From Planctomycetota bacterium (GTDB lineage Bacteria > Planctomycetota > Phycisphaerae > Sedimentisphaerales > Anaerohalosphaeraceae): DNA of 62,822 bases. Numbering within the stretch: the stretch's first letter is position 1; each line of letters begins with the position of its first letter. Position numbers and translations under genes: made by a program. The stretch lies in assembly GCA_016873215.1 (NCBI GenBank), contig VGXU01000009.1:1-62822 (forward strand), written 5' to 3'. Positions 2,660 to 54,030 of the stretch are shown here, piece after piece. The notes under the pieces were generated by a model. The model saw only the letters and a program-made list of their open reading frames with translations, did no database searches and was not told the origin of the DNA.

Positions 2660-2882
2660 CAAGGAACGTGACGACTTTTCTCATTCTTCCGTAAGTTGTT
2701 TCATTAAAAAGGGTTGCAAAACGGGAATCCGGCCCCGTAAATCTCTTTTTTCTTGCCACGAAAGGGTCTTGCTTTTTGAAAATGGAATGGGTATAATGAT
2801 CTGCTTTAGTATCAACTTCCTCTCGAACTCAATTTCTGAGAAGAAAATAAAACAACGTTTTTGTAAGGGTTAAATTACAGCA

Positions 2883-6941: not shown

Positions 6942-7224
6942 TACGAAAATCCCTTCCACATAATGCTATATTGCCATATTTATGATACCACGTTTTCCAG
7001 GCTGCCCACACGGACAGCCCTTCACAGCCACTACATCGGTATATACGTTTGTAATCTTAATAGGAAAAAATATTTTCACCCCTCCGAATACAATATCGGG
7101 ATTATTATAGGTCATTGACGCGGAATTGAAAAGCCCAAAACAGCGAGGAATCCGATAAAATCTATCCTGCTTTGAAAATATCCAGAATAGCTTCAACTCC
7201 GGGCGTTCCTGTTTTTGCATCCTT

Positions 7225-8556: not shown

Positions 8557-8691
8557 TTATTCACTTGCAAAGCAATGATAAAGGGATTCTTTATACCGTT
8601 CTTTTTCGGCAAAACAAGCCTGAATAGCACACAATAAAAATTTTTAATCCTTTTCACAAAAAGAGTTATGGATTTTACGAAAAAATTTTTG

Positions 8692-9157: not shown

Positions 9158-10063
9158 ATGGAAAATGACGTAATACGTTTCGAAGGGTTGGTTAAGTATT
9201 TTGACGGACGTTGCGTCCTCGACGACATCGACCTGAAAATCCCCCGCAGCTGCATTTATGGACTTCTGGGCCGTAACGGCGCCGGCAAAACCACGCTGAT
9301 TCGTATTCTGCTGGGGCTGGAAGAGCCGACGCGGGGGCAGGCCTTGATTTTCGGTACGTCGGGCCGCGACTTAACCGCACGGCAAAAACACAGCATCGGC
9401 TATGTCGCTGAAGGCCATCATCTCATCGGCTATTATACGCCGTACAAATTGATGGCGACCTGCCGGGCAATGTGCGGCAAATGGGATATGGCAACATTCA
9501 ATAAGCTTCAGGAGTTATTCAATATCCCGATGGGCCGCAAAATCAAGCAGCTCTCCACCGGCATGCGGGCGCAACTCAATCTGGCAATCGCTTTGGCAAT
9601 GGACCCGGAGCTTCTCATTCTCGACGACCCGACGCTGGGCCTGGATACGATTGTCCGGCGGCAGTTTCTGGAGCTTGCGATTGAGGTCATTCAAAAAGAA
9701 GGACGCACCATCCTGTTCAGTTCGCACATTCTCGGTGACGTGGAGCGCATTTCCGACCGCATCGGCGTGCTGGTCTGCGGCAGATTAGTTGTCGATTGCG
9801 AGCTGGAGGAATTGAAGCGGCGGATTCGTAAATTCCGCGTCATTTTTGCCGAGACGCCGCCGGATGATTTATATTTGACGGAAATCATCCGCGCCGAACG
9901 GCATGGCCGGGAATTGCATCTGACGGCGGCCAACTGGAATGCACAAAAACATAAAATCATCGAGACCTTCCGCCCCGAAAGTGTCGTTGAAGTTCCGATG
10001 AGCCTGGAAGATATATTCGTCGAATGTACATCAACCGCAAACGGCAATACTTTGACCGAATAA
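9158..10063 (+). CDS. ABC transporter ATP-binding protein
   Basis: 301 residues from the ATG at 9158, preceded by AAAGGAG. Walker A GRNGAGKTT is near residue 40, the signature is LSTGMRAQLNLA, and Walker B is LLILDDPTLGLD. The H-loop follows in FSSHI. The C-terminal 80 residues form the small regulatory domain common in BcrA/YtrB-type ATPases. With the GntR regulator before it and a permease after it, this is a YtrABC-like export or cell-envelope stress system. The transported substrate is unknown. Confidence 0.92.
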   Translation: MENDVIRFEGLVKYFDGRCVLDDIDLKIPRSCIYGLLGRNGAGKTTLIRILLGLEEPTRGQALIFGTSGRDLTARQKHSIGYVAEGHHLIGYYTPYKLMATCRAMCGKWDMATFNKLQELFNIPMGRKIKQLSTGMRAQLNLAIALAMDPELLILDDPTLGLDTIVRRQFLELAIEVIQKEGRTILFSSHILGDVERISDRIGVLVCGRLVVDCELEELKRRIRKFRVIFAETPPDDLYLTEIIRAERHGRELHLTAANWNAQKHKIIETFRPESVVEVPMSLEDIFVECTSTANGNTLTE

Positions 10064-10077
10064 CAAGGAGACCATAT

Positions 10078-10698
10078 ATGTGGACATTAATAAAAAGAGA
10101 ATGCACAGAGGTTTTCACCTATGCCATCGTCATTGCGTTAATTGCAGCCGGCTCGATTTTAGCCGCAGCCTATTTGCAAAAAGATCGTGATTTAGGAGTG
10201 TGTATTTTTGGATTCTTCATATTGGAACTCATTCTGACCGCCGCGGGTGTCAGCCGGATGGTTCTCGACCGGACCCATGGATTTTCTACCTTTTACACCA
10301 GTCATCTGACTACACGCAAACACATCTTTGCCGCTCGTCTGACTGCCGGCCTCTGCCTGGTTGCGATATACTGTATCCCCGTCGCAATCTGGCTGTCCTA
10401 TCAAACCAAACTGGTTCATGCAGATTCCGGCTTTATGCTCAATCTGCCATCCTCTTTTATGCTCCGCCTGATACCGCTTGCCATACTGATGCTTGTTGCC
10501 AGTTTCAGTCTCGGCTTACAGATGGGACTTTCCAATAAACCCATCCTATACTCACTTGGACCATTGGTTTGGGTTGTACTGTTGTTCACCGTAGTAGTCA
10601 TCGGCGGATTTCGATACAGCACCATCGCAATTCTTTTGCTGCTCAACGCATCGCTGCTGTATGCCTGCCGCAAACACTATCTGACAATGTCCTTATAA
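10078..10698 (+). CDS. ABC-2-type transporter permease
   Basis: 206 residues from the ATG at 10078 (AAGGAG, seven bases upstream). It opens MWTLIKRECTEV, as many ABC-2 permeases do, and has about six membrane segments: residues 12-30, 40-60, 85-105, 120-145, 150-175 and 180-198. It follows the ATPase gene with a 14-base gap, so the two probably assemble into one transporter. It is shorter than most ABC-2 permeases and has no large extracellular domain. Confidence 0.8.
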   Translation: MWTLIKRECTEVFTYAIVIALIAAGSILAAAYLQKDRDLGVCIFGFFILELILTAAGVSRMVLDRTHGFSTFYTSHLTTRKHIFAARLTAGLCLVAIYCIPVAIWLSYQTKLVHADSGFMLNLPSSFMLRLIPLAILMLVASFSLGLQMGLSNKPILYSLGPLVWVVLLFTVVVIGGFRYSTIAILLLLNASLLYACRKHYLTMSL

Positions 10699-10716
10699 AA
10701 GAAGGGAAATTACAAT

Positions 10717-12426
10717 ATGCAGCCGCAAAAAAAATGGATTTATACACTCGCAATCGGATTTACCGTCGTGTTTTTCTGGTCTGTCATCTCCTATTGGGGC
10801 GATTGGATAATATACAAAAACATCATCGCTGCTGCTCACCGCTATCCATCTATGAGATTATACGAGCCGGATTTACTCAGGATAAAAACCGCAGACACTA
10901 AAAGCTATGAGCCGGGATGTTTTGATTTCCGTATTAATCTGGAAGAATTATTTTCGCGTCAAACCGGTTTAGGTATATCTGGAAATCGTTCATTCGAACC
11001 GGAAATCGAATTTTCCTATCCAACAGACAAGGGCTGTCGAGAATGCTTTGCCTATGATAAAAAAATAGGGCAATTTGTCATTCAGGACATTAATTACGAA
11101 CAAAAAGAACCCCTCCAGAAAATCGTGGGCTATATCGGCCCCAAGGGATACTCCGCGAACGTCAATCCCCAAGTGGGAACCTTTTCAAATCCGTTCTATG
11201 TCCACTGGCTCAGACTATCTCCCGGCGTAATGGCTCATATTGTATATGACAACATTTTGCGGCGTTTCTACCGCATTGAGATAAATTACGCCATACGCAA
11301 ACCAGATTCTAAAACCACGTTTTATATCATTTCCCCGGATTCTATCAAGGTTGTCGAGGGCCCCCAACTGCAAATTGATAAGACTATTGTGGATAGATGG
11401 AAATGGAAAAGAAATGGATATGATTTTTCCTTGTCATGGATGCCGCCTCAACAACGGATTCGCAAATTGAAACCGGATTATTCGGAGGGTCAATACGCCT
11501 CCGCTGACCCCAACAATCTGCCCGATGGGGCATACCGCGAAACGTTCATTCCTTTTGAGAATGCGCCCAAATCTTTTGCCTACAAAATTGATTTTCTCAT
11601 TCTTTGTGAGGACGGCAAAATCGATTCTATCGACGGCAACACCTTGACGGTAGCAGGATGTGCCGGCTATCTGCCCCAGGTTGGCTTTTATCAGCAATCG
11701 TTGTCCAATCACCCTCAAGACCTGGGCGATTATGATATCCTTGGCCTATATGACCCCAACGACAAGCACCTCGGAACCGCCGTCGCCGCCGTCAGCAGAG
11801 ATGGGCTTTCGATGCAAATCGTATTCTATGATGACAAGGGAAATTTAATAAAAACATCTCTTCCGCCCTGTTTTTACAGTGATGATAATAATTTTTCTGG
11901 ATTGTCTGTATTAACATCTATACCAAGAGGCCCCCTCTTGATAACCTTGCGCTATCTATGGGAAAATCTCCAGCCTCCTGTCCTGCGTCTGCTGGATTTA
12001 CCCGCCAGTCAGTGGTTTAACCCCGAGACCGGATACTCGCATTTATTTGTCCGCCCCAACAGTATGATTGGCTTGATGAAAATAGAGTTTGATAGTTTCA
12101 ATTTCTGGCTTCTGTGGCTCTTTTTGATGCTGCCGTCACTGGTATTGAGTCTCTTGCTGGCAACCTCCGCACGAATCAAAGCTGCCCAAATGGGCTATCC
12201 CGCCCTATCCAAGGATGGCTGGTTTGTTGCCATTCTGACCTTCGGCATCCCCGCTTATATCACGTTCCGGCTGATGCTGCCAAAGGAACGGATGATTACC
12301 TGCGCCAACTGCGGCAACCTGCGGCGGGTGGAGTTTGAAAATTGTCAATCCTGCAAACGCGACTGGCAAAAAACTAAATCGCTCACTACTCCTCCCGACT
12401 GGTCCGCCAAAGATACGGGCAAATAG
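10717..12426 (+). CDS. Large membrane-anchored protein with C-terminal zinc ribbon, GntR-ABC operon
   Basis: A 569-residue protein with one N-terminal membrane helix (residues about 8-28), then a soluble, probably periplasmic, domain of over 400 residues rich in beta strands and aromatic residues. Two C-terminal membrane helices follow (about 452-475 and 490-512). It ends with a cytoplasmic zinc ribbon, CANCGNLRR...CQSC. It is the fourth gene of the YtrABC-like operon (GAAGGGA before the ATG), so it probably works with the transporter. I do not recognise the family. Confidence 0.75.
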   Translation: MQPQKKWIYTLAIGFTVVFFWSVISYWGDWIIYKNIIAAAHRYPSMRLYEPDLLRIKTADTKSYEPGCFDFRINLEELFSRQTGLGISGNRSFEPEIEFSYPTDKGCRECFAYDKKIGQFVIQDINYEQKEPLQKIVGYIGPKGYSANVNPQVGTFSNPFYVHWLRLSPGVMAHIVYDNILRRFYRIEINYAIRKPDSKTTFYIISPDSIKVVEGPQLQIDKTIVDRWKWKRNGYDFSLSWMPPQQRIRKLKPDYSEGQYASADPNNLPDGAYRETFIPFENAPKSFAYKIDFLILCEDGKIDSIDGNTLTVAGCAGYLPQVGFYQQSLSNHPQDLGDYDILGLYDPNDKHLGTAVAAVSRDGLSMQIVFYDDKGNLIKTSLPPCFYSDDNNFSGLSVLTSIPRGPLLITLRYLWENLQPPVLRLLDLPASQWFNPETGYSHLFVRPNSMIGLMKIEFDSFNFWLLWLFLMLPSLVLSLLLATSARIKAAQMGYPALSKDGWFVAILTFGIPAYITFRLMLPKERMITCANCGNLRRVEFENCQSCKRDWQKTKSLTTPPDWSAKDTGK

Positions 12427-14068: not shown

Positions 14069-14143
14069 CGGGGCGTGGCGCAGTTTGGCTAGCGCGCTTG
14101 ACTGGGGGTCAAGAGGTCGCAGGTTCAAGTCCTGTCGCCCCGA
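14069..14143 (+). tRNA. tRNA-Pro (anticodon GGG)
   Basis: Acceptor CGGGGCG/CGCCCCG, D arm GCGC/GCGC, anticodon stem CTTGA/TCAAG with loop CTGGGGG, T arm GCAGG-TTCAAGT-CCTGT with one G-U pair, discriminator A. The serine recombinase gene on the other strand ends inside its T loop. Confidence 0.96.
14119..14143. other. Candidate attachment site: tRNA-Pro 3' end
   Basis: The 3' part of the tRNA-Pro gene also encodes the last residues and stop of the adjacent recombinase. tRNA 3' ends are common integration cores. I searched by eye for a second copy of this segment at the other end of the accessory region (34.8-35.3 kb) and did not find one, so the boundaries are unproven. Confidence 0.4.
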
Positions 14144-15621
14144 CTTTTCTCAAATTTGGGCCGTTTGGCAAGAATGTCGAACGGCTTTCTCTTTGTAATG
14201 CAAAGACTTACATCACTTACAGCACGGTTCAAACTCAAGGATTCCAGAAGGTCGCGTTTAAGGGCATTGTTTGAACTTCGCCATAAATCGGCCGCTTTTT
14301 GGCTAAAATCGAATAATTGTATAGCGTTATTACCTTTGGATAGGTCAAAATTCCGGCTATTTTCAGTCGATTGAGTAAGTGTAGCCAGTTCGTTCTTAAG
14401 GGCGTTGGACTTGTTCTCGAATATCGCCTGATCTATTACCCCCGCCAGATATCCATTCAATAGCCGCTCTTGCATGTTCTCGAGTTCAGTTTTGCGTTTC
14501 TGAAAAGCTTTTTGCTGGCGAGAGGCTGCTTCGTTTATGTTGGCGAAAGCTGCTGTGAGTGCCTTGCGGAACCAGTCTGCATATTCAGGGGGCATGCGGA
14601 GCAATTCCAAATCCTTTACAACGGCCTCTTCGAGAACGTCTTGACGCCATCGAATCTTGGGGTGGTCGGCATCGGGGTGATTATTTGCACAGCGAAAATA
14701 AATATGTTCGTTGTATCCCCCGCCTTTGAGTTTCTTGCGGATACGCTCGCCGGTCATCGCTTTGCCGCAGTGTGCACAACGGAACAATCCTCCCGAAAGT
14801 GCGATATTGGTATTTCCGAAGCGACGATTCTTGCCATTAAGAATATCCTGGCAAAGCTCAAATGTCTGCCGGTCAATCAGAATTTTGTGTTTGCCGGGAT
14901 AGTATTTGTCTTTCCTTTTTATCTCGCCGATATAAAAACGGTTATTCAGTATGTGAGACAACGCCGTCCTGTTGAACCGAGGCTGGCTGGCTCTGAAAAC
15001 ATGCCCTTCGTTCAGAAGTTTGTCAGCCAGACTTTTGAACGTGTATTTCCCTGTTGAGTACAATTCAAACATCCGAACTATTGCACGGGATTTTTCAGGA
15101 TGTGGTACAATGGGTTCTTCCTTGTCATCAACATTGATATACCCATAGGGTGCAAGTCCTGTCGGCCAACCCTGCCTTACCTTTTCGTCCATGCCTTTGA
15201 GAACTTCAGCACGAAGGTTATCACTGTAATATTGTGCCACAGCAGCCATCACATTAAACGATAAAGCCCCGGCAGCACCGGGACCAAACTCATTGTCTAT
15301 AAAGGCAAGCTTGACCCCCAGTGTGTCTTCCAGTTCCTGCAATCTAACCGCATCCCGCATATTACGGCAGACGCGGTCAAGCTTGTGGGCAACGATGGCA
15401 TTGATCTTGTGCTTTTGGGTATTTTTCTGTACCCACCCGAACATCTGGTTAAAGGCGACACGTTCAGCACCACGTTTAGCAGATTCAGCTACAACGAATT
15501 CGTTTATAACGTTCCAATTTTCCCGCTGGGCTCTGTCCCGCATAGCCCGAAGCTGGGCATCAATGGAATAACCTTCACGTTGTTCACGCGAAGATACGCG
15601 AGCCCAAAGAACCACATTCAT
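14125..15621 (-). CDS. Large serine recombinase (site-specific integrase/resolvase family)
   Basis: 498 residues. The N-terminal resolvase domain has LWARVSSREQ with the nucleophile Ser10, then AHKLDRVCRN. A recombinase domain follows (about 150-260) and then a zinc ribbon: FRCAHCGKAM near 290 with a CANNHPDADH second half. A coiled-coil stretch precedes the C-terminus (about 365-430). The last residues, EKSRGDRT, and the stop are encoded inside tRNA-Pro, placing the gene exactly at one end of the accessory region. It would carry out integration or excision of the element. It overlaps the upstream 99-residue gene by four bases (ATGA). Confidence 0.93.
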   Translation of the reverse strand: MNVVLWARVSSREQREGYSIDAQLRAMRDRAQRENWNVINEFVVAESAKRGAERVAFNQMFGWVQKNTQKHKINAIVAHKLDRVCRNMRDAVRLQELEDTLGVKLAFIDNEFGPGAAGALSFNVMAAVAQYYSDNLRAEVLKGMDEKVRQGWPTGLAPYGYINVDDKEEPIVPHPEKSRAIVRMFELYSTGKYTFKSLADKLLNEGHVFRASQPRFNRTALSHILNNRFYIGEIKRKDKYYPGKHKILIDRQTFELCQDILNGKNRRFGNTNIALSGGLFRCAHCGKAMTGERIRKKLKGGGYNEHIYFRCANNHPDADHPKIRWRQDVLEEAVVKDLELLRMPPEYADWFRKALTAAFANINEAASRQQKAFQKRKTELENMQERLLNGYLAGVIDQAIFENKSNALKNELATLTQSTENSRNFDLSKGNNAIQLFDFSQKAADLWRSSNNALKRDLLESLSLNRAVSDVSLCITKRKPFDILAKRPKFEKSRGDRT

Positions 15622-17763: not shown

Positions 17764-19895
17764 GGTTTTATTACTCTGGGCTGGCCCCGCCCAGCGATTT
17801 TGGATGTTTGGATATTGCCAGCCAGTTCCAGTTCGCCAATGAGTTCCTGCAATGTTCTTTTGCTGGTTATGCCCGTTATCTGGCTAAGCTGGGAGATATT
17901 CATGGCCTGACCGGTCTGCTTGTAATAATTTTCGATTGCTCCAAGTAAGTATCCGGCTTCTTCTGAAAGGGGTTTACGCGAGTCGGCTTTCTTGCCCAAA
18001 ATCTTCATGGTTTCCTGCTCGCTGAAGTCCCATACTTTTGAAAAAGGCGGACGCACCTTTGCCTCTATGCTGCCCCATGTCGGATTATAAAAAATACCTG
18101 TGCCGGGCTTTAAGCGTGTGATTTTATGGCCATCACCAATAAAGTCGGCTGCATAATCAATTTCATTGTCGGAGTTATGCATAAAGATTTTTGTTGTTGT
18201 GTTCTTGCGGATACTTGAAAAATCACGAGCAAAATCCTTAATACTCTGACTGGTAACATTAACAGAAATACCAAATTTTCGACCCTCTCTAATAAGTCGG
18301 TCAAGGGCTATTTCTGCCTGTTCTCCAGCTGTCTTTGCGTCTTCGGCAACACGTTTCTTGGTAAATCGGTGTGCTTCTTCGACCACAAAGAGTAATTTTG
18401 CGGTTGCCGACTCTTCGTTTGAACAGACTTTAAAGACAGCATTGATAATATCCGCAAAATATTCACACCGCTCTTCATCATCGAGATTTTTAAGGCAAAC
18501 AACTGACTTTCCAACTGCAAGCTCTCCGAGATTGGTCGGCAATTTTTGGCTGAATGAAAAACCCGGGGCATAATAGTTGAATGCGAATCCTCTGGCGGAA
18601 TCTTTTTTCAAACCAAATTCAGGATATTTAGCGATTATCTCTTCCCTGTCTTCTGGGACAAGCAATCCAGCAAATTGGTTTCCTGGGTCGATCACGAGGA
18701 CGCTTACACCCTCATAATTAGCTACTTCCTCTATAACCACCCGGCCAGTAAAACTTTTACCCGAGCCGGTAATCCCCGATGTGTAAAAATTGTTAAATTG
18801 AGCAAACGGAAGTATGCACGGTTTTTTTGTGGGCTGGCCGTTTGAAACAGATAAGCCAATATTTATCGGCATGTTGCGGGCAGGAATATTTTCAAGCAAT
18901 GAATCAGTCTTATCTGTTTTATCCATGCGACGCACCATTGCCGACACTACATGTGCCGCCAGCAGCTTTTTATCCTCCTTAACGCTGCCGTTTATCTCAA
19001 TATCTGCTTTGGCGGTGATCATGGTTCGCTCCGACATAGCATTCTGAAGCGTAGAAAAATATTTATCCACCCTGGCCATCTGCCGTGGGGCAAAACTACC
19101 ACCAAACCATTCCTCGATCCATGTGGTGAGAGGTTCCTTGGCTTCTTCGATATGGATATTTAACCTGCCTCCATTGAGTTTTTGCGATACCTGATAACGG
19201 TGCATGTCCTGCAATTCCTTTATAATGCTCGAAACCGCATCTTTGAAGTCGTAAGGATTGTCAACTGCCTGCAGATTTGAACTAAAGCTAAAGCTGTAAC
19301 ATGCGGCAGAACCTTTGTTTTGGTACTCTCTCTGGAGATTTTCAAACAGAGTCAATTTTTCCTTTTTTTGGCTTAGGTTTTCTTGTAATCCGGCTATATC
19401 CCTTTTGAGAGTATTACTCTGTTGCTTGATATATGTACCCATCAAGTCAGATGAATCAATTGTGAGCTTCATTAACTGTTCATTGCTGTGTAGTTGAGAT
19501 GTCTTGGCATTAAGTTGACGTTGTAAAGCCGCAATTTTCTCAACAGTTATATTTAGGTCTTGATCCTGTCCAAATCGACGCTGTATTTGAAGCATCGCCT
19601 GCTTTGATGTGATATCGCGAAAAGATGAAAAGGTTATGCGTATCTCCGGCAGACAAGACTCCAGAAAATCCTGTAAGGGTCCGATTTCGCGAGCCCAGCT
19701 TTCACCTTCGGTACTGATGGATTTGAGATAGTAATCCTTGAATCCCTTCAGAAGGCATTTTGACCCCAGTGGCAGCACTATGATTTGAATGTGGTGTTCA
19801 TGGTGCCACCACACCATAAGGTCAATACGATACCGCAGGCTTCCAATGTTGACAAAGCCAAGGCTGTTCAAGATTTCTTCAAACTTATCTGCCAC
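17742..19895 (-). CDS. HerA/DUF87-type ATPase with N-terminal coiled coil
   Basis: 717 residues. Residues 1-100 are an unrecognised globular domain, then a coiled coil (about 125-205). The HerA/FtsK-like ATPase has Walker A SGITGSGKSFTGR near 372 and Walker B LLFVVEEAHRFT near 503, followed by TSQSIKDFARD, the usual sensor region. A C-terminal winged helix (about 650-717, SQITGITSKRTLQELIGELE) could bind DNA. HerA ATPases pump or translocate DNA and often pair with nucleases. The gene starts inside the last codons of the Cys-rich gene, tying it to the ubiquitin-like cassette. Confidence 0.87.
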   Translation of the reverse strand: MADKFEEILNSLGFVNIGSLRYRIDLMVWWHHEHHIQIIVLPLGSKCLLKGFKDYYLKSISTEGESWAREIGPLQDFLESCLPEIRITFSSFRDITSKQAMLQIQRRFGQDQDLNITVEKIAALQRQLNAKTSQLHSNEQLMKLTIDSSDLMGTYIKQQSNTLKRDIAGLQENLSQKKEKLTLFENLQREYQNKGSAACYSFSFSSNLQAVDNPYDFKDAVSSIIKELQDMHRYQVSQKLNGGRLNIHIEEAKEPLTTWIEEWFGGSFAPRQMARVDKYFSTLQNAMSERTMITAKADIEINGSVKEDKKLLAAHVVSAMVRRMDKTDKTDSLLENIPARNMPINIGLSVSNGQPTKKPCILPFAQFNNFYTSGITGSGKSFTGRVVIEEVANYEGVSVLVIDPGNQFAGLLVPEDREEIIAKYPEFGLKKDSARGFAFNYYAPGFSFSQKLPTNLGELAVGKSVVCLKNLDDEERCEYFADIINAVFKVCSNEESATAKLLFVVEEAHRFTKKRVAEDAKTAGEQAEIALDRLIREGRKFGISVNVTSQSIKDFARDFSSIRKNTTTKIFMHNSDNEIDYAADFIGDGHKITRLKPGTGIFYNPTWGSIEAKVRPPFSKVWDFSEQETMKILGKKADSRKPLSEEAGYLLGAIENYYKQTGQAMNISQLSQITGITSKRTLQELIGELELAGNIQTSKIAGRGQPRVIKPFRPEVD

Positions 19896-20448
19896 GCAAC
19901 AACCTCAATTTAGCATATTCCAGTCTCATCCTGTTTATCTCTCGAATGGCGGCCAGTTGACCGCTGGTGCGGATGCGAGATGCCTGAATCTGGCCCATCA
20001 TTCTCGAACGTGCTGCCTGTAAACGCAGGGCATGGATATAATTGACTTGCCGCTGACGTATTGCCCAGTTTTCAAGAGCCGCTCTTCGCATAAGCATCTG
20101 GTCTTCTATGTACTGCCTCTGCTTAAGCTTGACGAGGCAGATTGGGCATACGGTAAAAGTGTGCGAGCCAACGAATCCTCTCCGGCAGTGGCCGCACAGC
20201 CTGCGGTTGCACACATGGCAATGCGTTTGGCAATGCGTACAACAGCTTCGTATTCCGCAATAGTCGCAGTGGCCGGTTAATTCAGCAACATCAGTAATTG
20301 GGCGTCTGCAATTGGGGCACCAGATCGCCGCCTGGCGCTGGGTATAGTACAATCTGTCATTACCATTGTCGGTTAGACGCTCGGAATTACCGTGTATGGT
20401 GCGTCCTGAAGCATCCACTATGATCCGCCTTTTAATAATATTTCGCAT
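19885..20448 (-). CDS. Cys-rich zinc protein, RING/treble-clef-like candidate
   Basis: 187 residues. After a 40-residue start, thirteen cysteines lie between residues 44 and 104, in CxxC pairs at 44/47, 61/64, 70/73, 77/80, 85/88 and 101/104, with interspersed His. This spacing fits two or three zinc sites of the binuclear treble-clef (RING/B-box/zinc-ribbon) kind. The rest (about 110-187) is a basic, Gln/Arg-rich helical tail. The gene directly follows the E1-like gene and overlaps HerA, so an E3-like or adaptor role in the conjugation cassette is plausible but inferred. AGGAG before the ATG supports the start. Confidence 0.75.
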   Translation of the reverse strand: MRNIIKRRIIVDASGRTIHGNSERLTDNGNDRLYYTQRQAAIWCPNCRRPITDVAELTGHCDYCGIRSCCTHCQTHCHVCNRRLCGHCRRGFVGSHTFTVCPICLVKLKQRQYIEDQMLMRRAALENWAIRQRQVNYIHALRLQAARSRMMGQIQASRIRTSGQLAAIREINRMRLEYAKLRLLRGR

Positions 20449-20480
20449 ACATCTACTCCTAAAAAATACTTCAGATTTAA

Positions 20481-21329
20481 TTATTCCTGAGAATTTTCAG
20501 TGGGCTGATCGTATAGGGCAGAACAGTCCGGACAATTGGGTTCTCGTTCCATCGGTAGTGCAATCGTCGTAAAAGAGAAGTTTGCCGGATGATTGCCCAG
20601 ATACTTGCGAAAGATATCTTTTCCGTTAAGCGTGTAGCTTGGATCAATTTTGGTCTGCAGAAGGTTACGATTACCAAGTTGTTCGAGGAGTTTTCCATAA
20701 CGGTTATCGGCGCCATGGGTCAGTAGCCCTAATGCGATTTGTCCGGCTACGGCGTCAACCATTCGTAAGTCAAATATTGTACTGCCATTACTGCTAACGT
20801 TGCTTTGACCTTTAGCAAAAGCCTGATATCTACTGGCACAAATGCATCGATAACAGGCAGGTGTCAGACCTGGATACCAATAAATAATCTCGCTGGCGCG
20901 GCCACCAGGATACAATCCTATGAACAGTGATGGCTTTCCCAATCTTATTGCTTCCCGATTACCTCGCGCATCGACAAGAAAAGAATCTGCCGAGTAGATA
21001 AACAGGTCGGTATGTCCAAAGAGCTGATCATGATCTTCCTCGGATAGCGCACAATAATTTAGGATGTGAGTTTCAGTCTCAATGTCAGGATTGGTTTTAT
21101 GCAATCTCTCTGCAGCAACTTCCACTTTACGGCGGGATATATGAGTAGAATTAAAATCCTGACGCGCAACATTGGACGGCGACACGCAATCGAAATCTAC
21201 AATACTGAAGCTGCCCACACCGCATTTGGCAAGATCGTCAATTAGCCTATAGGCTCCGCCAACCATAGTTACATGTTTTTGCTTTAAAGCCGCTACGCTT
21301 ACAGCTGATTCAATACGACTAAAGTCCAT
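20481..21329 (-). CDS. E1-like ThiF-family adenylyltransferase, cassette 1
   Basis: 282 residues. The nucleotide site is a variant Rossmann loop (MVGGAYRLIDDLAKCGVG, residues 22-39) followed by IVDFDCVSPSNVARQDF (43-59), which contains the Asp and the N-x-x-RQ signature of E1/ThiF/MoeB enzymes. A zinc pair is formed by CYRC (about 161-164) and CPDC near the C-terminus. The family adenylates the C-terminus of ubiquitin-like proteins. The cysteine in the ACYRCICA region could be structural or catalytic; this cannot be settled by eye. AAAGGA precedes the ATG. It lies between two JAMM genes and the Cys-rich gene on one transcript. Confidence 0.88.
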   Translation of the reverse strand: MDFSRIESAVSVAALKQKHVTMVGGAYRLIDDLAKCGVGSFSIVDFDCVSPSNVARQDFNSTHISRRKVEVAAERLHKTNPDIETETHILNYCALSEEDHDQLFGHTDLFIYSADSFLVDARGNREAIRLGKPSLFIGLYPGGRASEIIYWYPGLTPACYRCICASRYQAFAKGQSNVSSNGSTIFDLRMVDAVAGQIALGLLTHGADNRYGKLLEQLGNRNLLQTKIDPSYTLNGKDIFRKYLGNHPANFSFTTIALPMEREPNCPDCSALYDQPTENSQE

Positions 21330-21351
21330 AATCTTATCCTTTCAAAATTGG

Positions 21352-21891
21352 TTAAAAGAAGTTTATCCGGGCTTCTACAGCGATATCCGGGTTATCTCTG
21401 AAAACGACCATCATTCGCATGCGAAACTCATGTGGAATAATTAGTGGCGCTAAAAATACAGGCATTTCGGGATTGATAATTAGAAGTCTTTTTATGTAGG
21501 CCATATCTTCAGTGGTAAGTCTGTCTAATTTCCCTGGATGGCTGTGCGCTATACCTTTTAAATCTATACCAGCGGGTATCCACTCTTCCTTTAATTTCTT
21601 GACGATGGTTACACAGTCTGGGGCGTAACTGGTGCCTGTAATACTGCCGCCAGCATCGAAAAAGAAGTCGGTACCGTCGTTGCTGCCCAGCGGCCCCAGA
21701 ATCAACCCGCCTGTTTCTGCCGGCCTCGGACAAATCGAAAACATCATCTTGTCAAAGGTTTCACGAGTCATATTTACGACTGCATCACTTCTGTTGTCAT
21801 TTACCTTCTGCGGGGCATCACATTTACTGGACAACGGCTTGGGAGCCTCAATATTTAAATCGCTCTGCTTTGAAACATTATCATGGAACAT
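21352..21891 (-). CDS. JAB/JAMM metalloprotease, cassette 1 copy B
   Basis: 179 residues. A polar N-terminal 40 residues precedes the JAMM core: Glu59 in AETGGLILG, and the zinc motif H116-S-H118-P...T...D129 (IAHSHPGKLDRLTTED). These are all four catalytic or zinc positions of isopeptidases such as Rpn11 and bacterial Cap3/RadC-like JABs. It is expected to cut ubiquitin-like tags from substrates or mature a modifier. It is a close relative of the next upstream gene (shared SYAPD/TYAPD, EWIPAG/DWEPAG, GIAHSHPG). GAGGTG six bases before the ATG supports the start. Confidence 0.9.
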   Translation of the reverse strand: MFHDNVSKQSDLNIEAPKPLSSKCDAPQKVNDNRSDAVVNMTRETFDKMMFSICPRPAETGGLILGPLGSNDGTDFFFDAGGSITGTSYAPDCVTIVKKLKEEWIPAGIDLKGIAHSHPGKLDRLTTEDMAYIKRLLIINPEMPVFLAPLIIPHEFRMRMMVVFRDNPDIAVEARINFF

Positions 21892-21912
21892 GTTTACACC
21901 TCTGCTTTTTAA

Positions 21913-22467
21913 TTAATCTACAATTTCAAAATACGCCTGTTGAGCACGGTTCATTTGGTCACGAGAAACTACTAGTGGACGAATCGCATAGTGATGCGGC
22001 AAAACTATAGGGGCTACAAACGTCTTCATGTTCGGGTTGTTAACCATCAATCTTTTTATGTAGCTTATATCTGCACGAGTAAGGCTGTCGAGATTTCCAG
22101 GGTGAGAGTGAGCAATTCCTTTTATCTCCAATCCGGCAGGTTCCCAGTCTTCATGTAATTTCCGGTTTATTGTGAGATAGTCAGGAGCGTAGGTGCCGCC
22201 TGTTGAGGTTGCACTATGATCAAAATAGAATTCTGTGATGTAATCTCTTCCGACCGGTCCAACAAAAACACCGCCTTTTTCTGGCAATCTGGAACCAACT
22301 TGATTCATTAAATCATATACAGCCTTATGCTTAATCTTTATAGCCACCATCTTGATACAAACATCGCTTTCAGCAGTTTTAAGCCTTTCGATAGCCTGCC
22401 GTATGAGATGTTTCGTTTGCTCGCATCTCGTACATACACTTTTATAGTTATTTTTTTCTTCGCTCAT
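21913..22467 (-). CDS. JAB/JAMM metalloprotease, cassette 1 copy A
   Basis: 184 residues from the ATG at 22467, which has AGGTG upstream; an in-frame GTG nine bases earlier does not. A CTRC pair at 12-15 is an addition not present in its neighbour. Catalytic positions are Glu63 (PEKGGVFVG) and H120-S-H122-P...D133 (IAHSHPGNLDSLTRAD). Sequence similarity over the whole core to the gene at 21352-21891 shows a tandem duplication. The differing N-termini and the retention of both active sites suggest the two copies have separate targets, or that they pair. Confidence 0.9.
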   Translation of the reverse strand: MSEEKNNYKSVCTRCEQTKHLIRQAIERLKTAESDVCIKMVAIKIKHKAVYDLMNQVGSRLPEKGGVFVGPVGRDYITEFYFDHSATSTGGTYAPDYLTINRKLHEDWEPAGLEIKGIAHSHPGNLDSLTRADISYIKRLMVNNPNMKTFVAPIVLPHHYAIRPLVVSRDQMNRAQQAYFEIVD

Positions 22468-22484
22468 CTTAAACACCTGTAAAT

Positions 22485-22790
22485 TCAGCTTTGCGAGATG
22501 CCTGTTTTTCGATATTCAAGAAAATACTCCGCCCATTGTGCCGCATATTTTTCTGCTTCTGAACGCGACCTTGGTTCTTTTCCATCAACGAAGCAAATTA
22601 GCCCCGAATCCCATATATGAGTTTTGCGTGGGTTTGGATTTTGGCCGTTGAAAGATGGATGGTAAGTGCAGTAAATGTCGAAATAATTTCCACGATCAAC
22701 AAATCTAAAGCTGAAAAGGTGACGCCCGTCCTTTGAACAGTAAGTTATGGTCTTACCATGAAATTTTCCAGGTACTATTTTCGTGTTCAT
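22485..22790 (-). CDS. Small E2-like (UBC-fold) protein, cassette 1
   Basis: 101 residues from the ATG at 22790 (GGAG six bases upstream). The longer frame from 22841 lacks a ribosome site. The layout resembles minimal prokaryotic E2 proteins: beta strands with YCTYHPSF (His44), then THIWDSGLICFVDG with His58 and Cys66, then a helix with AAQWAEYFLEYRKTG. In E2 enzymes a His-Pro near strand 4 and a G-x-(I/V)-C-(L/F) cysteine mark the active site. The position beside E1 and JAMM genes supports the call. No search was possible, so this is a motif-level assignment. Confidence 0.55.
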   Translation of the reverse strand: MNTKIVPGKFHGKTITYCSKDGRHLFSFRFVDRGNYFDIYCTYHPSFNGQNPNPRKTHIWDSGLICFVDGKEPRSRSEAEKYAAQWAEYFLEYRKTGISQS

Positions 22791-22847
22791 ATTGATCTCC
22801 AAACATGGGCCGGAAGCTTTCACTCCCGGCCCGTTCTTCAAGAAACC

Positions 22848-23045
22848 TTAGAATACCACGTCCGTTTCAGAAGGCGGTATCAAGCCGTCAGGAGCCAACG
22901 CAGCTTCCATGTCCTCGCGAAAACCATCTTCCGGAAGAGGCACTGGAGGACAATCCCCAGAAGAATTGGCGACACATTTAGTGTGGAATGTGCCCGGTTC
23001 GATCTCACCACCGAAAAAAATCCCACAACACAAGTTCTTGTTCAT
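22848..23045 (-). CDS. Small Cys-containing hypothetical protein, cassette 1
   Basis: 65 residues, MNKNLCCGIFFGGEIEPGTF at the start and SETDVVF at the end. AAGGAAC lies at good distance before the ATG. Four cysteines are all in the first half. It is the first gene before the E2-like gene (57-base gap). It does not look like a beta-grasp modifier: it is too short, Pro-rich, and has no C-terminal Gly. It could be a substrate, toxin-like or regulatory peptide of the cassette; nothing more can be said. Confidence 0.55.
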   Translation of the reverse strand: MNKNLCCGIFFGGEIEPGTFHTKCVANSSGDCPPVPLPEDGFREDMEAALAPDGLIPPSETDVVF

Positions 23046-24506: not shown

Positions 24507-27500
24507 ATGCCGACGAAAGTAATAATTTTATGCTTGCTGTGTATAACTGCGGGATCGCCGTTTGCTGGCGCAGACGAGTCTTTCCCTCATAGTTCAGAAT
24601 CGGCTCAAATCCGCAGTTCGTTTTCTATATTCACGGAGTTGTGGACAAGAGGCGGCCGTTCCTCAACTCAAGGAGACGACAAGAATCTTAGTCAGAATTT
24701 GCAAAATAAAACGTATGCCTCACAGACAGTAAAACCGATTCTGGCAAAAATATCTTTAATTGATTGGGTAATTGCGATCATTGGGATTTCTATTCTTGTG
24801 TTTCTATGTGTGGCGTTCCTTTTTGGGGGAAAATCCGGTCTTCCCTCACTGCACGAAAGTTTTATTCAGGCAGGCATCTTACTATTACTTATCTTACTGA
24901 TATGCGGCGTTAATGTTACATGCTTTTATTGGATATATTCGAATGCATCTCGTCATGGACAATTGCCGGGAGCTATTTTTTATATTATGCCGTTGGCATT
25001 TTTGTTAGTTGTTATATTGGCATACAGGCCAACATATGCTTTGATTACAAAATATCATCTTCACTGCTTAAGGCGTGGTTCCAAAGAACCGCAGCAATCG
25101 ATCTGTGAATTAGTGAAGAGCATCGCTCATAGTATGGAAATAAAAGCCAGGATTTCTCCGATCAGTTCGAATATATCTGACATCTCACCATATGTGATCG
25201 GAACATCGAAGGAGTGTTATATTGTATTGCCATCGAATTATGACAGTCTGCTCGAAGGTGCCTGCGGAGATAATGGATTGAAGGAAGGGTTGGGTCGGCT
25301 TATTCTTTCCCATGAGCTTGCCCATATCAAGAACGGAGACATCTATCTCTTACCAATCTATTGGGTAATAACAAAACCGCTCAAATGGTTCTGCCTGGCA
25401 TCCATCGTCCTGTATTTTTGCATAAAGTATTGCATAAATCCATCTTCCACAGTTATGTTATTTGCCGGAAACCTCATACCACTGAATATCACAGTATTCT
25501 GCTTTTTATATATTTCCATAAGATACCTCCTAAAGAAGAGAGAACAATTGGCGGACGCTGTTGCGACCCTGTTTACACATCCTGACACAGTGCAACAATT
25601 AACCCTTGAGTCGGGCACCATGTTGGCACCACTTGAAATGTTTATATTTTCACTTATTACCAGGTCGCCTCTGAATAGGTTTTGTTTTGGTTATGCTTTG
25701 AAGGAGCAAAGTATAATTTGGGGATTTGCGTTGTTCAAAAAAAAGATTGCTGATTTTCGGCTGTCTTATGTAAATAGAGCCAGAGCCGTCGTTTCCAAAG
25801 AAAACGCCCTAAACGGTGTTTATCTGACCGTAAAAGAGATATTATTTATCGCAGCTGTGACAGCGATCACCTTTGCCGTAATTCGTTTTGTAAAATCAGG
25901 TTTAATTGTAAATCATTTAATTGCCTTTGGTCTGCCTGAAGATATTGGTGAAGGAGAATTGTTCACAGCAGGCGAGACGCTCTATCGTCAATATAAATGG
26001 ACAGGGATAAATCTATTTTGCAACATTGTCCTGTCTTTCATCGCTGCCACCTTCTTAATAATGCATCATCGGAATAGTCCTGGCAATCATAGCAAACTCA
26101 AATCAATAACAAGCTATATCCCGGCACTATTGTCAGAGTTAAAAACAACACCAATATGGATAATAAGAATACCGGCCATGTTGCTGACCAGGATATTTAA
26201 GTTTTTTGATAAAGGCACAGTTATTTTTTATGCAGTCATTTACTTATTGTTTTTCAACATTTTTATTTCCTGGATACCGAGTTTTTCATGGAAACCATTA
26301 ATGTTAAATTTCTCCTGGATGCAATTACGTCCCCCGGGAATTATATTGCTTCTGACTGTAATGGCAGTAACTTATTTGCTCACTCATCTTAAGTTCGAAA
26401 GACATTATTTCCCGCACACCACTATACGTCTGGCCTTGCCGTTTTCAATAGATATTGATATTGCCGCCTTTAAGATTCTAGTGCAGCTATTGTGTCTGGT
26501 ATTAATAACCGTTCTCTTTGTAAAAAGCGACACTTATTTGCCGGTGTTATCAAAGATAGCCATGGTAATGTTCGCGAACATGGCCACCGTATTCGCACTT
26601 GATACTTCGACTGTGCAACTGATTTCAAAACATAATTATATAAGGCAGGAATGCTTAATCTATCGAAGGATATTTCTGAAAAAACAATATTACTCTTTGC
26701 CAGTGATTCGAGATAATACGGTGTCTTCTCGCCTGACAAAGGAAATACTCATACATTTATTTATTACGTGGATAATCCCGTTTTGTCTGTTATATTTTTT
26801 AGGGTATATCCTCTTAATAAAATTTGACTTGTGGTATTTTAACAATATAGCCAGCCTGAAAGAATCTCTGAATGAAATAATTTCGGCGGTACCTCACCAG
26901 AGCCACCACGGAATCTTCAAGGTGTTATTTTTAATTTTCTTATGTAACCATGTTGGTCCGGACAAAATACCCCCCTCTTTAGCACTGTCGATGTCTATTG
27001 CAATATTAATTAGTCTTGCGGTAATAGCAATGATATTAATACAGTTTGCGTTTGAAGATAAAACTAAACAGCGTCTCAATAATATTAAACTGATGGGAAA
27101 CATCTCAAGACTTCTATGCGGCGGAGAACTTCCTGCATCACACGACAAAAAATATTTTGTTGAAAAAATACTGCCAAAATGTTCGCAAAAGCATCCCTAC
27201 ATCTTTGATATAGAAAAAGTCCCTCTGATGGCATCAACTTGCGATGCCATCCTTTTTGCGAAGAGAAATAATCTCGACAGCCGTTTAATGCCAAATATGA
27301 TCTGCTGGATAAAACAATGTATGTCCTCAAACGGAGGATTTGCTGTCCGGCCAGGGATACAACCTGATGCCTATCACACATGGGCGGCATTGTCTATGCT
27401 GCACGAAATTGGTCAATTAAATACATCATTGAAATCGGCAAATAATAGATGGTTAAAGAGACAGCTTTGTGAATTTATGGATTGCGATAATGAACAGATT

Positions 27501-27902
27501 ACTGATCGAGACTGGCTCTTCTATGCAGAGAATATGGTATTATCGGCATCTTTAACCGACGAAGGAGAAAGATTCACAAACGAAGAAATGAAATGGCTTT
27601 CGCGGACGGCATATTACAGATGGAAGCGTAATGAACAATCGCCGTTATGTACAAGATTATTTGTTACTATTATCAAAAATCTCGGTCTCTTCAACGATAC
27701 CTACGACGATGTGCTTGCGGAATGGCTGCATGACCATGAGAGAAAACTATCAAGCCTTTCGCCAAGGGCACAATTGGCAGATATAGTCGAATATATTACG
27801 ATAATTTCGTTTTTGTATCCGCAGGCATATCTGCAAAGGGAAAGTGTTGTCCAGGCCATGGACAATATTTTAAAATTACATAACCAGGCAAATATTAGTT
27901 GA
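24507..27902 (+). CDS. Giant membrane protein: M48 metallopeptidase fused to a cyclase-like repeat domain
   Basis: 1131 residues with a signal peptide (about 1-22) and many membrane helices (first pair near 90-110 and 118-142). Residues 180-360 hold an M48 (HtpX/Ste24-like) protease: LSHELAHIKNGD with H269-E-L-A-H273, and the third zinc ligand E346 in REQLADAVA. Further helices span 440-850. The cytoplasmic-looking C-terminal region (about 880-1131) contains NGGFAVRPGIQPDAYHTWAAL near 943, matching prenyltransferase/squalene-cyclase alpha-alpha repeats, with a further helical stretch after it. This combination is unusual. Divergent from the cassette 1 operon. AGGA lies ten bases before the ATG. 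Confidence 0.8.
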   Translation: MPTKVIILCLLCITAGSPFAGADESFPHSSESAQIRSSFSIFTELWTRGGRSSTQGDDKNLSQNLQNKTYASQTVKPILAKISLIDWVIAIIGISILVFLCVAFLFGGKSGLPSLHESFIQAGILLLLILLICGVNVTCFYWIYSNASRHGQLPGAIFYIMPLAFLLVVILAYRPTYALITKYHLHCLRRGSKEPQQSICELVKSIAHSMEIKARISPISSNISDISPYVIGTSKECYIVLPSNYDSLLEGACGDNGLKEGLGRLILSHELAHIKNGDIYLLPIYWVITKPLKWFCLASIVLYFCIKYCINPSSTVMLFAGNLIPLNITVFCFLYISIRYLLKKREQLADAVATLFTHPDTVQQLTLESGTMLAPLEMFIFSLITRSPLNRFCFGYALKEQSIIWGFALFKKKIADFRLSYVNRARAVVSKENALNGVYLTVKEILFIAAVTAITFAVIRFVKSGLIVNHLIAFGLPEDIGEGELFTAGETLYRQYKWTGINLFCNIVLSFIAATFLIMHHRNSPGNHSKLKSITSYIPALLSELKTTPIWIIRIPAMLLTRIFKFFDKGTVIFYAVIYLLFFNIFISWIPSFSWKPLMLNFSWMQLRPPGIILLLTVMAVTYLLTHLKFERHYFPHTTIRLALPFSIDIDIAAFKILVQLLCLVLITVLFVKSDTYLPVLSKIAMVMFANMATVFALDTSTVQLISKHNYIRQECLIYRRIFLKKQYYSLPVIRDNTVSSRLTKEILIHLFITWIIPFCLLYFLGYILLIKFDLWYFNNIASLKESLNEIISAVPHQSHHGIFKVLFLIFLCNHVGPDKIPPSLALSMSIAILISLAVIAMILIQFAFEDKTKQRLNNIKLMGNISRLLCGGELPASHDKKYFVEKILPKCSQKHPYIFDIEKVPLMASTCDAILFAKRNNLDSRLMPNMICWIKQCMSSNGGFAVRPGIQPDAYHTWAALSMLHEIGQLNTSLKSANNRWLKRQLCEFMDCDNEQITDRDWLFYAENMVLSASLTDEGERFTNEEMKWLSRTAYYRWKRNEQSPLCTRLFVTIIKNLGLFNDTYDDVLAEWLHDHERKLSSLSPRAQLADIVEYITIISFLYPQAYLQRESVVQAMDNILKLHNQANIS

Positions 27903-27910
27903 GGATGTCT

Positions 27911-29362
27911 ATGAATAAAGCGGATTCATTAAATTGTATCAGGCATATCGCAGAAAGTTTTATCGCAAAGCATGCTCCTGACGAAATTCGGTACTTCCCC
28001 ATAATTTGGAATCGCTTTTGCAGTGAAAATCTTTTTTCACAACGAACTTCACGGGTTTCCATACTCACTTTTGCGGAACAAAATAATATTGGGCTTATAA
28101 GTCCTTCCATGCTTTTTGTATTAAAAGGCGTGATGTTCGAACTTAAGACAAAGATCGACAAGCCTTCTTTGGAAAAAGTCAGAAATGCAGTGCGTACATG
28201 TGCGGTCGAGCTCGGAGCCTCCAATGATATTGCCGTATCATTGGAGCAGAATCTTTCGGTGATGATTTATGAAAATCTTCTTAATTTATCTGTTTCTACG
28301 GACACTATATGTAATCCAAAATTTCCTCAGAATCGTATTGTATCCGTTAATTCTATCAAAGACATCCGTATCGATGGCCAAAAAATAAAATTCGAAGCAC
28401 AACAGCCGTTAGCTCTGTTCCGTGAGCTTCTCCGTAAGAATAAGGTACATTGGAGCATTGCTTTTCTTCTGTTTCCTACATGGTGCAATAGCAAGGTCAA
28501 TGACCCGAAAGAGCAATTCAAGAAGCTTGCCTATAAAATGAATATGTTTATGCAGAATAATGGTCTTGATATAAAGATCGATTGGGAGAAGACCGATGAC
28601 GCGAAAGCAGAATATGTTAAACTTTCTGTTCCTGATAATGTCAGAATTTCCGGCGGTATCATCGAGTCTAAGAATTTAATAGAAACCGCTGAAAGCCTGA
28701 TGAAAGAAAATAGACATAAGGATGCCATAGATAATGCCATAAAAGCATTTAACAATGACTCGGTATGGTTAGCACCCATGATAGTATTTGCCGAAGTTAT
28801 TGCACATCTTGACCGGAAACAATTGTGTGATTTCCGAGAACACATAATAAAAATTCAAGGCAAGCTGAAATATCAATATGAACTAAGGGTCAATGCTGCC
28901 GGTGTTGCGGAAAAATATCCCCCGGAAGACAGACAGAATAAATATTTCCTGTTTGAAATTATGTATGATTATGCATCTGAAATAAATCAAATCGTGCGAG
29001 CTTCGAAAATTTTGGATACGGTGATTGAAAACGGCGACATAAGGCAAACTTCAGAGGAATTGGAATATGATTTAATTTGCAGTATCCTCAGAGAGATGAA
29101 AAATCTGTCTGGTGATGGCTTCAATTTGCAGTATACCCGCCTGCTCAATACCAAGTCCGTTAAAGAAGTGATACAGAATACGGTTGTTGCCTGCAGCAAA
29201 AATTTATCAGATTATGAAATAAAAAACGAGAATGTTTTAGGATATCTCTGGGAATATATACGTGAAATAATTAGCGGTTCTGTCGAGTACGAAAATATTG
29301 GACATCTTAAAGGACACTGGGTTAAAGCCCTCGAAAAACGTATTGAAAATGATCTTAAATAG
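27911..29362 (+). CDS. Hypothetical protein partner of the M48 fusion
   Basis: 483 residues from the ATG at 27911 (GAGG six bases upstream), starting eight bases after the M48 fusion stop, so surely co-transcribed. Residues about 255-310 (SLMKENRHKDAIDNAIKAF) look like a TPR-type helix pair, and the rest is mostly helical with no membrane segment or signal peptide. No catalytic motif is visible. It may be a cytoplasmic partner or regulator of the membrane protease. It overlaps the convergent gene at 29355-30140 by eight bases. Confidence 0.7.
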   Translation: MNKADSLNCIRHIAESFIAKHAPDEIRYFPIIWNRFCSENLFSQRTSRVSILTFAEQNNIGLISPSMLFVLKGVMFELKTKIDKPSLEKVRNAVRTCAVELGASNDIAVSLEQNLSVMIYENLLNLSVSTDTICNPKFPQNRIVSVNSIKDIRIDGQKIKFEAQQPLALFRELLRKNKVHWSIAFLLFPTWCNSKVNDPKEQFKKLAYKMNMFMQNNGLDIKIDWEKTDDAKAEYVKLSVPDNVRISGGIIESKNLIETAESLMKENRHKDAIDNAIKAFNNDSVWLAPMIVFAEVIAHLDRKQLCDFREHIIKIQGKLKYQYELRVNAAGVAEKYPPEDRQNKYFLFEIMYDYASEINQIVRASKILDTVIENGDIRQTSEELEYDLICSILREMKNLSGDGFNLQYTRLLNTKSVKEVIQNTVVACSKNLSDYEIKNENVLGYLWEYIREIISGSVEYENIGHLKGHWVKALEKRIENDLK

Positions 29363-33476: not shown

Positions 33477-33674
33477 ATGGAAATAAAAAAAACATGTGCC
33501 AACTGTATCCAGGAACTGGATATCGGAGTTGACACCCTCAGAGTTGACGAAGGGGTGATTGGTACCAAGGGATTTATTCCGTTGGAAAACACCTTATTCT
33601 TCTGCTGCGACAGGTGTCTTAGAGATTACTTCGATATGGGCGATCTGCCGAGTATGCCTGGACGATTTCCATAG
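33477..33674 (+). CDS. Small zinc-binding protein overlapping the integrase 3' end
   Basis: 65 residues. CANC at 8-11 and a second group, CCDRC, near 42-46, make a probable single zinc knuckle; between them is a short beta-rich segment (IGTKGFIPLENTLFF). Its last 56 bases run antisense to the end of the tyrosine recombinase gene. The Cys pairs and length are typical of real small proteins, but the ribosome site is weak. Confidence 0.45.
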   Translation: MEIKKTCANCIQELDIGVDTLRVDEGVIGTKGFIPLENTLFFCCDRCLRDYFDMGDLPSMPGRFP

Positions 33675-39386: not shown

Positions 39387-39404
39387 TGTAATTATTTCCT
39401 TTCA

Positions 39405-40796: not shown

Positions 40797-40816
40797 CGCT
40801 TCGGTTCCTTTCTTTT

Positions 40817-53961: not shown

Positions 53962-54030
53962 TGCAATTTCCCATACAAAATCCTGTAATGCTTCAGGGCG
54001 TTATTGCAGACTTCTGATGCCAATAAAAAA

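Follow-up and report, generated by a model that had tools for sequence, protein, structure and literature searches.

To our knowledge, every modifier that is carried by an E1-E2 enzyme cascade is a folded beta-grasp protein, and recognition by the enzymes is thought to require that fold. The small modifiers Pup and UBact are not beta-grasp proteins, and Pup, with ~64 residues, is ligated through its C-terminal glutamate by PafA, without E1, E2 or JAMM enzymes. The subject of the current report is a cassette of conjugation-type genes, headed by a gene for a short peptide, on contig VGXU01000009.1 of a Planctomycetota bacterium (assembly GCA_016873215.1), of which positions 1 to 62,822 were analysed (the window, 62,822 nucleotides), together with related loci from other genomes (designated by L numbers). 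We regard it as probable, at moderate confidence, that the cassette specifies conjugation in the manner of ubiquitin, with a peptide of ~11 residues as the modifier in place of a folded beta-grasp protein. Such a modifier would resemble Pup and UBact in being small and lacking that fold, and would differ from Pup in depending on E1, E2 and JAMM enzymes.

The closest layout in the literature is that of the type 6e systems (Iyer et al. 2006, PMC1779556), in which a JAB-E1 fusion accompanies one to three tandem ubiquitin (Ub) domains of ~70-75 residues that are in some cases joined to an E2/RWD domain. The cassettes described here share with type 6e a JAB and E1 pair that is fused or adjacent, a tandem-repeat precursor, an E2/RWD partner, at times joined to the precursor in one protein, and, in some cases, a zinc-finger protein. 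The repeats of type 6e, however, are beta-grasp domains of 70-75 residues, whereas those found here are units of 11-12 residues, and the genome of the window has no match to PF14452 (Multi_ubiq). The ISG15-like BilABCD systems (PMC11354881) also combine E1, E2 and JAMM enzymes with a precursor processed by the JAMM protein, but BilA consists of two beta-grasp domains and BilD carries a catalytic Cys domain, whereas no folded modifier and no conserved E1 cysteine other than zinc ligands were found in the present family. Type II cyclic oligonucleotide-based antiphage signaling systems (CBASS; Cap2 E1-E2, Cap3 JAB) and E2-only CBASS likewise place conjugation enzymes and a JAB protein in one operon; the window cassette differs in its separate E1 and E2 genes, its peptide gene and the lack of any match to a CD-NTase model among the proteins scanned with PADLOC (those of the cassette and of 24.5-32.3 kb), in agreement with a preliminary description of this DNA, which had set type II CBASS aside.

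A different comparison is with the ThiF-like enzymes (MccB, PaaA, GrcB, EnfB) of pathways for ribosomally synthesized and post-translationally modified peptides (RiPPs), in which an E1-fold adenylyltransferase also acts on a short ribosomal peptide. As described in PMC12250964, these clusters differ from the present ones in having no E2 or JAMM, and they carry an N-terminal RiPP recognition domain. The modifiers of the E1/E2 systems in PMC1779556 and PMC11354881 are exclusively folded ones; Pup and UBact are the bacterial modifiers named in the latter, and the repeat motifs reported below occur as strings in no paper of the open-licence PMC literature.

The peptide gene and its repeat units

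The preliminary description of the window had recognized an operon for an E2-like protein, two JAMM proteases, an E1-like protein, a zinc protein with 13 cysteines and a HerA ATPase. All of these genes were found on the minus strand, where it had placed them or close by, but the peptide gene ahead of them had been overlooked. The features of the cassette are as follows.

22848-23045, minus strand: gene of 65 codons for a 65-residue peptide, the proposed modifier precursor, upstream of the E2 gene
22983-23009, minus strand: peptide unit GEIEPGTFH, the motif shared with the cassettes of most relatives
22807-22832, minus strand: hairpin rich in G+C that separates the peptide gene from the E2 gene, a possible attenuator or terminator
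22485-22790, minus strand: E2 (UBC)-like protein, 101 residues from an ATG (AlphaFold model and VIA-align)
21913-22476, minus strand: JAMM protease 1, 187 residues from a GTG or 184 from the ATG at 22467 (motif and profile)
21352-21891, minus strand: JAMM protease 2, 179 residues (intact motif)
20481-21329, minus strand: E1-like adenylyltransferase, 282 residues, two CxxC zinc pairs (Pfam ThiF, 1.8e-19)
19885-20448, minus strand: zinc protein with 13 cysteines and a long C-terminal helix, conserved in L020, L042 and L062
17742-19895, minus strand: HerA-family ATPase, 717 residues (Pfam DUF87, 2.6e-7), overlapping the zinc protein gene by 11 nucleotides

The window peptide begins MNKNLCCGIFFGGEIEPGTFHTKCV..., and a homologous peptide (MKGSASSLICVGQFFGPDIEEGTFH...) occupies the same position within the same gene order in L042, where MKGSASSLICVGQFFGPDIEEGTFHLEE is matched by MNKNLCCGIFFGGEIEPGTFHTKC... 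of the window. GEIEPGTFH, scored with a matrix from which the window was left out, outranks all 20000 shuffles of the peptide. Two further candidate units in the window were rejected: VPLPEDGFR in the same peptide, which is not significant (1836/20000 shuffles), and PGKFHG at the N-terminus of the E2, where the sequence KIVPGKFHG resembles the unit and PGKFHG alone is likewise not significant (1407/20000 shuffles, p ~0.07).

Proteins related to JAMM 1 and to the E1 were gathered from genomes of the same phylum, from named genomes (Phycisphaerales L020 and L021, Bacteroidales L022 and Pontiellaceae L023), from the phylum of L023 and from the Bacteroidota. Fifteen loci, including the window, have readable flanks (those of L020 and L021 are unreadable) and span the Planctomycetota, the Bacteroidota and the Kiritimatiellota search group. 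The motif [DE]xxxxGT[FL]H lies beside the E1, JAMM and E2 genes in 14 of the 15, either in a short open reading frame (ORF) or, in one case, at the N-terminus of the E2; in the remaining locus, L064, the only sequence of this kind is TEGTLHG, at the beginning of the E2. The preliminary description had proposed a search of related genomes for the same neighbourhood and for a conserved additional gene encoding a beta-grasp protein. The neighbourhood does recur, in L020, L021, L042 and L062, and a conserved additional gene does exist, but the hunt for a beta-grasp protein proved to be the wrong question because that gene encodes a short repeat peptide. The precursors are often tandem arrays of 11-12-residue units, such as EDVVPPGTFHG, DDELPEGGFRG (four copies) and GGESVPSGTFR (five copies), with acidic residues ahead of an end in G-T-[FL]-H or, in two loci, in G-T-F-R or G-G-F-R. 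The units by locus are listed here.

L013: four units, the last three EDVVPPGTFH, array ending HAG
L014: two units of DEIPPGTFH, ending HVL
L015: two units of EELDSGTLH, ending HA
L022: four units, each ~11 residues long and centred on EDIEPGTLH, with one identical pair; the array has H as its last residue
L023: four identical units of DDELPEGGFRG
L044: GEEDAIPAGTFH, the first copy a variant and the next three identical, ending at H
L045: five identical units of GGESVPSGTFR, ending at R
L047: three units of GGEExxPGTLH, in frame with the E2 and joined to its N-terminus
L016, L017 and L018: one unit each, ending HTGR or HSDN
L043: one full unit and one degenerate unit
L042: one unit, in the gene order of the window

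Satellite arrays with no adjacent E1 occur in two genomes (L061 at 3921-4112 and 8300-8569; L060 at 7875-8012), beside STAND-WD40 or AAA_2 genes and with a full cassette nearby in each genome. Directly after the GTLH array of L022, at 9544-10910, lie genes for a Cys-rich short peptide and then a radical-SAM-like protein, which look like a separate RiPP locus.

The evidence that we consider decisive comes from the codons of the arrays, since it is independent of the choice of any motif. Array copies differ from one another by 176 synonymous and 62 non-synonymous codon changes (proportions of differing sites, pS 0.68 and pN 0.079; the L015 array contributes nothing to these counts), and 51 of the 62 stem from the single degenerate array of L022. 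The arrays of L023, L044 and L045 have 39, 14 and 58 synonymous differences, respectively, which together make a ratio of 111:0. Copies that have diverged heavily at silent sites and yet are identical in amino acids must therefore have been under selection as peptides, unit by unit, while the N-terminal leaders of the precursors are not conserved. On this pattern every repeat unit matters at the amino-acid level, as in polyubiquitin. In frames of no more than 230 codons, a motif of the form [DE]x(1-5)G[TG][FL][HR] has 36 occurrences in the 42.6 kb of cassette DNA and 11 in 274 kb outside (0.85 versus 0.04 per kb); six control loci with other JAB, E1 or multi-ubiquitin genes have none. These densities are descriptive only, since the motif was defined after the arrays had been seen.

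These results bear directly on the idea that the cassette is an ordinary operon for a ubiquitin-like protein (Ubl), of the type 6e, Bil or CBASS II kind, with an unrecognized beta-grasp gene and the peptide gene as an unrelated neighbour. The enzyme set and the JAB-E1 fusions do resemble type 6e, and small divergent Ubls can escape profiles. The peptide, however, is what the loci share, unlike any other small gene; four to five perfect amino-acid repeats with saturated synonymous change are not explicable by chance; and the enzymes have no recurrent neighbour in the form of a small folded ORF. Given the codon test and the motif density, we regard this explanation as strongly disfavoured and highly improbable. 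The preliminary description had seen no beta-grasp modifier gene between 14 and 30 kb, and we too saw no folded one there; Pfam-type scans, which a divergent Ubl could escape, detected none among the ORFs around the cassette.

The ends of the arrays provide a further indication of function. In L022, L044 and L045 the final copy has H or R as its very last residue, and most other precursors continue for 1-4 residues (HA, HAG, HVL, HTGR, HSDN or RG), as is usual for modifier precursors that are processed to a defined C-terminus. The units might instead be docking or regulatory motifs, with GT[FL]H bound non-covalently by the E1, E2 or JAMM protein, or they might be the targets of conjugation, the true modifier being a beta-grasp protein encoded elsewhere, such as a chromosomal ThiS. 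The units within or at the start of some E2s, the satellite arrays of L060 and L061 and the existence of a ThiS in the genome of the window would all suit such roles. On the other hand, most arrays end at H/R or 1-4 residues past it with all of up to five copies conserved; the sole ThiS/MoaD-family match of the genome lies on another contig (C54) beside a ThiF-type E1 match, as in ordinary thiamine synthesis; and no recurrent candidate gene for a Ubl of 60-110 residues was seen, on reading by eye, in the 11 loci of ~13 kb or more (L013-L018, L022, L023, L042, L045 and L047). We consider these docking or target roles improbable.

Of 16 peptide ORFs, 15 have a strong hairpin after the stop codon (z -2.1 to -6.2), six of these with a T-run; the one in the window (22832-22807) is among 70 nucleotides after the stop with a minimum free energy of -29.7 (z -6.2). 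Located between the peptide and enzyme genes, it would let more peptide than enzyme be made.

The enzymes and the proposed conjugation pathway

The 101-residue protein has no sequence match in Pfam or the Protein Data Bank, even with a profile. Its AlphaFold model, made from four sequences (predicted local confidence, pLDDT, 75.5; predicted template-modelling score, pTM, 0.68), has a beta meander, an active-site loop and a long helix. Foldseek alone gave nothing significant with this model (best E 0.7). VIA-align found as the best E2 match the Serratia CdnG-associated CBASS E2 (8yjy_B, Z 5.6 over 94 residues), with UFC1 at Z 4.8 and dozens of Ubc9/Ube2D-type enzymes dominating the list. Because the Z values are moderate and VIA-align re-ranks Foldseek candidates, we take the predicted UBC (E2) fold as well supported and not as proven; the preliminary description would have been refuted by the lack of a UBC fold in this protein together with a neighbourhood not conserved elsewhere, and neither was found, the model being UBC-like and the neighbourhood recurring in other genomes. 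A cysteine is present in the active-site region of 15 of 15 aligned E2s, though the alignment columns shift, and a histidine and a proline are invariant. In the window, Cys66 and His58 are the putative catalytic residues, placed in the model where they would be expected in E2s. A UBC-fold protein with the conserved Cys and His is present in every locus with a readable flank. L043 encodes in addition two E2-like paralogs (1710-2156 and 2831-3256) in which the catalytic Cys is replaced, beside an E2 that looks active.

The two JAMM proteases are 41-48% identical and both carry an intact E...HxH...T/S..D motif. Their Pfam scores are weak (0.0016 and 0.012, under the Pfam cut-off), and a profile of seven sequences matches solved proteases (Pyrococcus JAMM1, 4.6e-4; the AMSH-like Sst2, 0.015); the residues E66, H123, H125, P126 and D136 of the motif E...HxH(P)x7[S/T]x2D are invariant in those seven. 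The JAMM (JAB) and E1 genes are adjacent in the window, and the two are fused in L013, L014, L022, L023, L043, L044 and L045. Among 17 E1s, R5 (the arginine finger), D45, D47, N53, K68, D115 and the zinc ligands C159, C162, C266 and C269 are conserved, and the variant nucleotide loop described earlier for the window E1 is real, since members of its clade have two residues fewer there than most relatives. In an E1 tree the peptide-associated E1s group together, apart from unstable long-branch outgroups, and a single origin for them is possible.

The zinc protein is a candidate E3-like protein or adaptor; its structural model has low overall confidence (pTM 0.36), too weak for a structure search. 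The partner ATPases are of several kinds. HerA, which had been proposed as the motor of the system, is present in the window, L021 and L042 (the window and L042 proteins are 51% identical over their full length), with a HerA-like P-loop protein, recognized by eye, in L043, but further relatives have other ATPases: AAA_2/ClpB-type proteins in L022, L023, L043, L045 and L060, and a protein like type IV coupling proteins (T4CP-like) in L064. A STAND-WD40 protein adjoins L014, and a P-loop protein of L016 with no Pfam match precedes a replication-relaxation gene.

What the sequences show directly is the set of genes, the repeat peptides with their selection, the linkage of these to E1/JAMM/E2, and folds or motifs of the UBC and JAMM kinds. 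Since the layout is that of type 6e with the Ub repeats of 70-75 residues replaced by 11-mers, we propose the same flow of JAMM cleavage, adenylation, E2 transfer and JAMM removal, and infer the chemical steps, cleavage site, targets and role of the motor as follows. The small peptide gene would be transcribed ahead of the enzymes and, with the hairpin between them, probably in excess over them. The JAMM proteases would cut after the conserved His or Arg, thereby freeing units or trimming a tail, and may later take tags off targets. The E1 would adenylate the freed C-terminal carboxylate (of His or Arg), and the UBC-fold E2 would accept the peptide on its cysteine and hand it to a target amine, perhaps with the assistance of the zinc protein. 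Likely acceptors or readers of the tag would be HerA in the window and AAA_2 or T4CP-like motors elsewhere. The genomic context hints at a possible role in defence or in control of the element, and the name "defence" would be premature.

The peptide-modifier explanation has to be weighed against several observations that do not favour it. No conserved cysteine exists in the 17 E1s beyond the four zinc ligands (the best other column is 9/17); the usual E1 thioester is therefore unsupported and the peptide would have to pass directly from the adenylate to the E2. The long-branch outgroups prevent a firm resolution of whether the peptide-associated E1s are monophyletic. In the window and L042 a tail of ~40 residues follows the unit, as compared with near-exact ends elsewhere; the peptides of L016, L017 and L018 have a single unit only; and the GGFR unit of L023 means that the T and H are not absolute. 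Finally, L062, a contig of a viral collection, has no recognizable peptide beside its truncated E2, JAMM, E1 and zinc protein genes.

The absence of an E1 cysteine, together with the modification of short peptides by ThiF-type enzymes (PMC12250964), leaves a RiPP-like pathway as the main rival. The arrays would then be multi-core precursors, the E1 would adenylate the cores in the way of MccB, GrcB or EnfB, the JAMM proteins would remove leaders and separate cores, the UBC-like protein would serve in tailoring or as a carrier, and the product would be a modified free peptide. Short, arrayed precursors with a hairpin after them suit such a pathway, as does the radical-SAM/short-peptide locus directly downstream in L022. 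It accounts less readily for a UBC-fold protein with conserved Cys and His in every readable locus, for leaders that vary while units are conserved, for the frequent partnership with HerA, AAA_2, T4CP-like or STAND proteins and for cassettes beside which, with neighbourhoods read by eye, no dedicated exporter was seen. In addition, the fusions of units to E2s (three units in L047 and single N-terminal units in L022 and L064, with a shuffle p of ~0.005 for each of the latter two) suit a modifier better than a product, and we count them for a modifier. On these grounds a RiPP-like pathway seems to us rather unlikely.

The mobile element and its distribution

The cassette lies next to a recombinase linked to a tRNA gene, as had been noted in the preliminary description, and the two features are these.

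14125-15621, minus strand: large serine recombinase of the carrying element (Resolvase, Recombinase and Zn ribbon domains)
14069-14144, plus strand: tRNA-Pro(ggg), at the end of the element (ARAGORN), overlapping the 3' end of the recombinase gene

The recombinases of the window and L042 elements are 73% identical. A tRNA-Pro(ggg) also lies beside the cassette of L023 (5270-5346), in a distant bacterium, which suggests a shared integration site. The window contains no detected direct repeat of the tRNA end by which the other end of the element might be placed. Members of the family are few and scattered, occurring in 6 of 392 genomes of the phylum (that of the window included), in 4 of 17 genomes of one genus and in 6 of 388 and 3 of 344 genomes of two other groups; three of these matches (G262, G526 and G884) are distant outgroups. 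Plasmid and phage searches with the JAMM 1 and JAB-E1 proteins found no family member (general ThiF-type matches of 27-31% identity, or none). Four scans of viral contigs found one relative, L062, whose truncated E2, JAMM, E1 and zinc protein genes (5190-7442) lie beside methyltransferase and Vsr-like genes. Taken as a whole, an E1-E2-JAMM system in which an unfolded 11-residue modifier is made as a tandem precursor, much as polyubiquitin is, and which has been carried from phylum to phylum by mobile elements and is coupled to motors of the AAA+/HerA type, is a description that we would still favour on balance, if a little less firmly than its core.

Other genes of the window were noted as well. 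A second HerA/DndH-like ATPase (30329-32305, minus strand; PADLOC DndH, 1.2e-14) lies near a plus-strand pair at 24507-27902 (M56-type peptidase region) and 27899-29362, possibly as a further conflict system of the same element. Beyond a tyrosine recombinase-like gene (33619-34809) is an operon for metal efflux of the resistance-nodulation-division type (36216-42271, minus strand), with an inner-membrane pump, an adaptor and an outer-membrane factor. Another conjugation-type cassette (53600-62700, minus strand) encodes a DUF2958 protein, a Cys-rich zinc protein (58978-60000), a JAB protein that is weakly Cap3-like (58302-59063) and a ThiF-like protein (57649-58302); no unit of the GTFH type was conspicuous in its vicinity.

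Implications of a possible peptide modifier

The enzyme machinery of these cassettes is of a known kind, and what is new, within the open-licence PMC literature, is the proposed modifier. Should the cassettes turn out to specify a RiPP pathway instead, it would be one that had recruited an E2 fold, which would also be new. The combination of a short ORF for a tandem peptide, a hairpin after it and a neighbouring JAB-E1 provides a simple signature with which other genomes might be searched. If the peptide is indeed the modifier, the family would account for those E1/E2/JAMM operons of bacteria that seem to lack a modifier, would represent a minimal genetically encoded tagging system and, as a cascade operating on an 11-mer, would show that the beta-grasp fold is dispensable.

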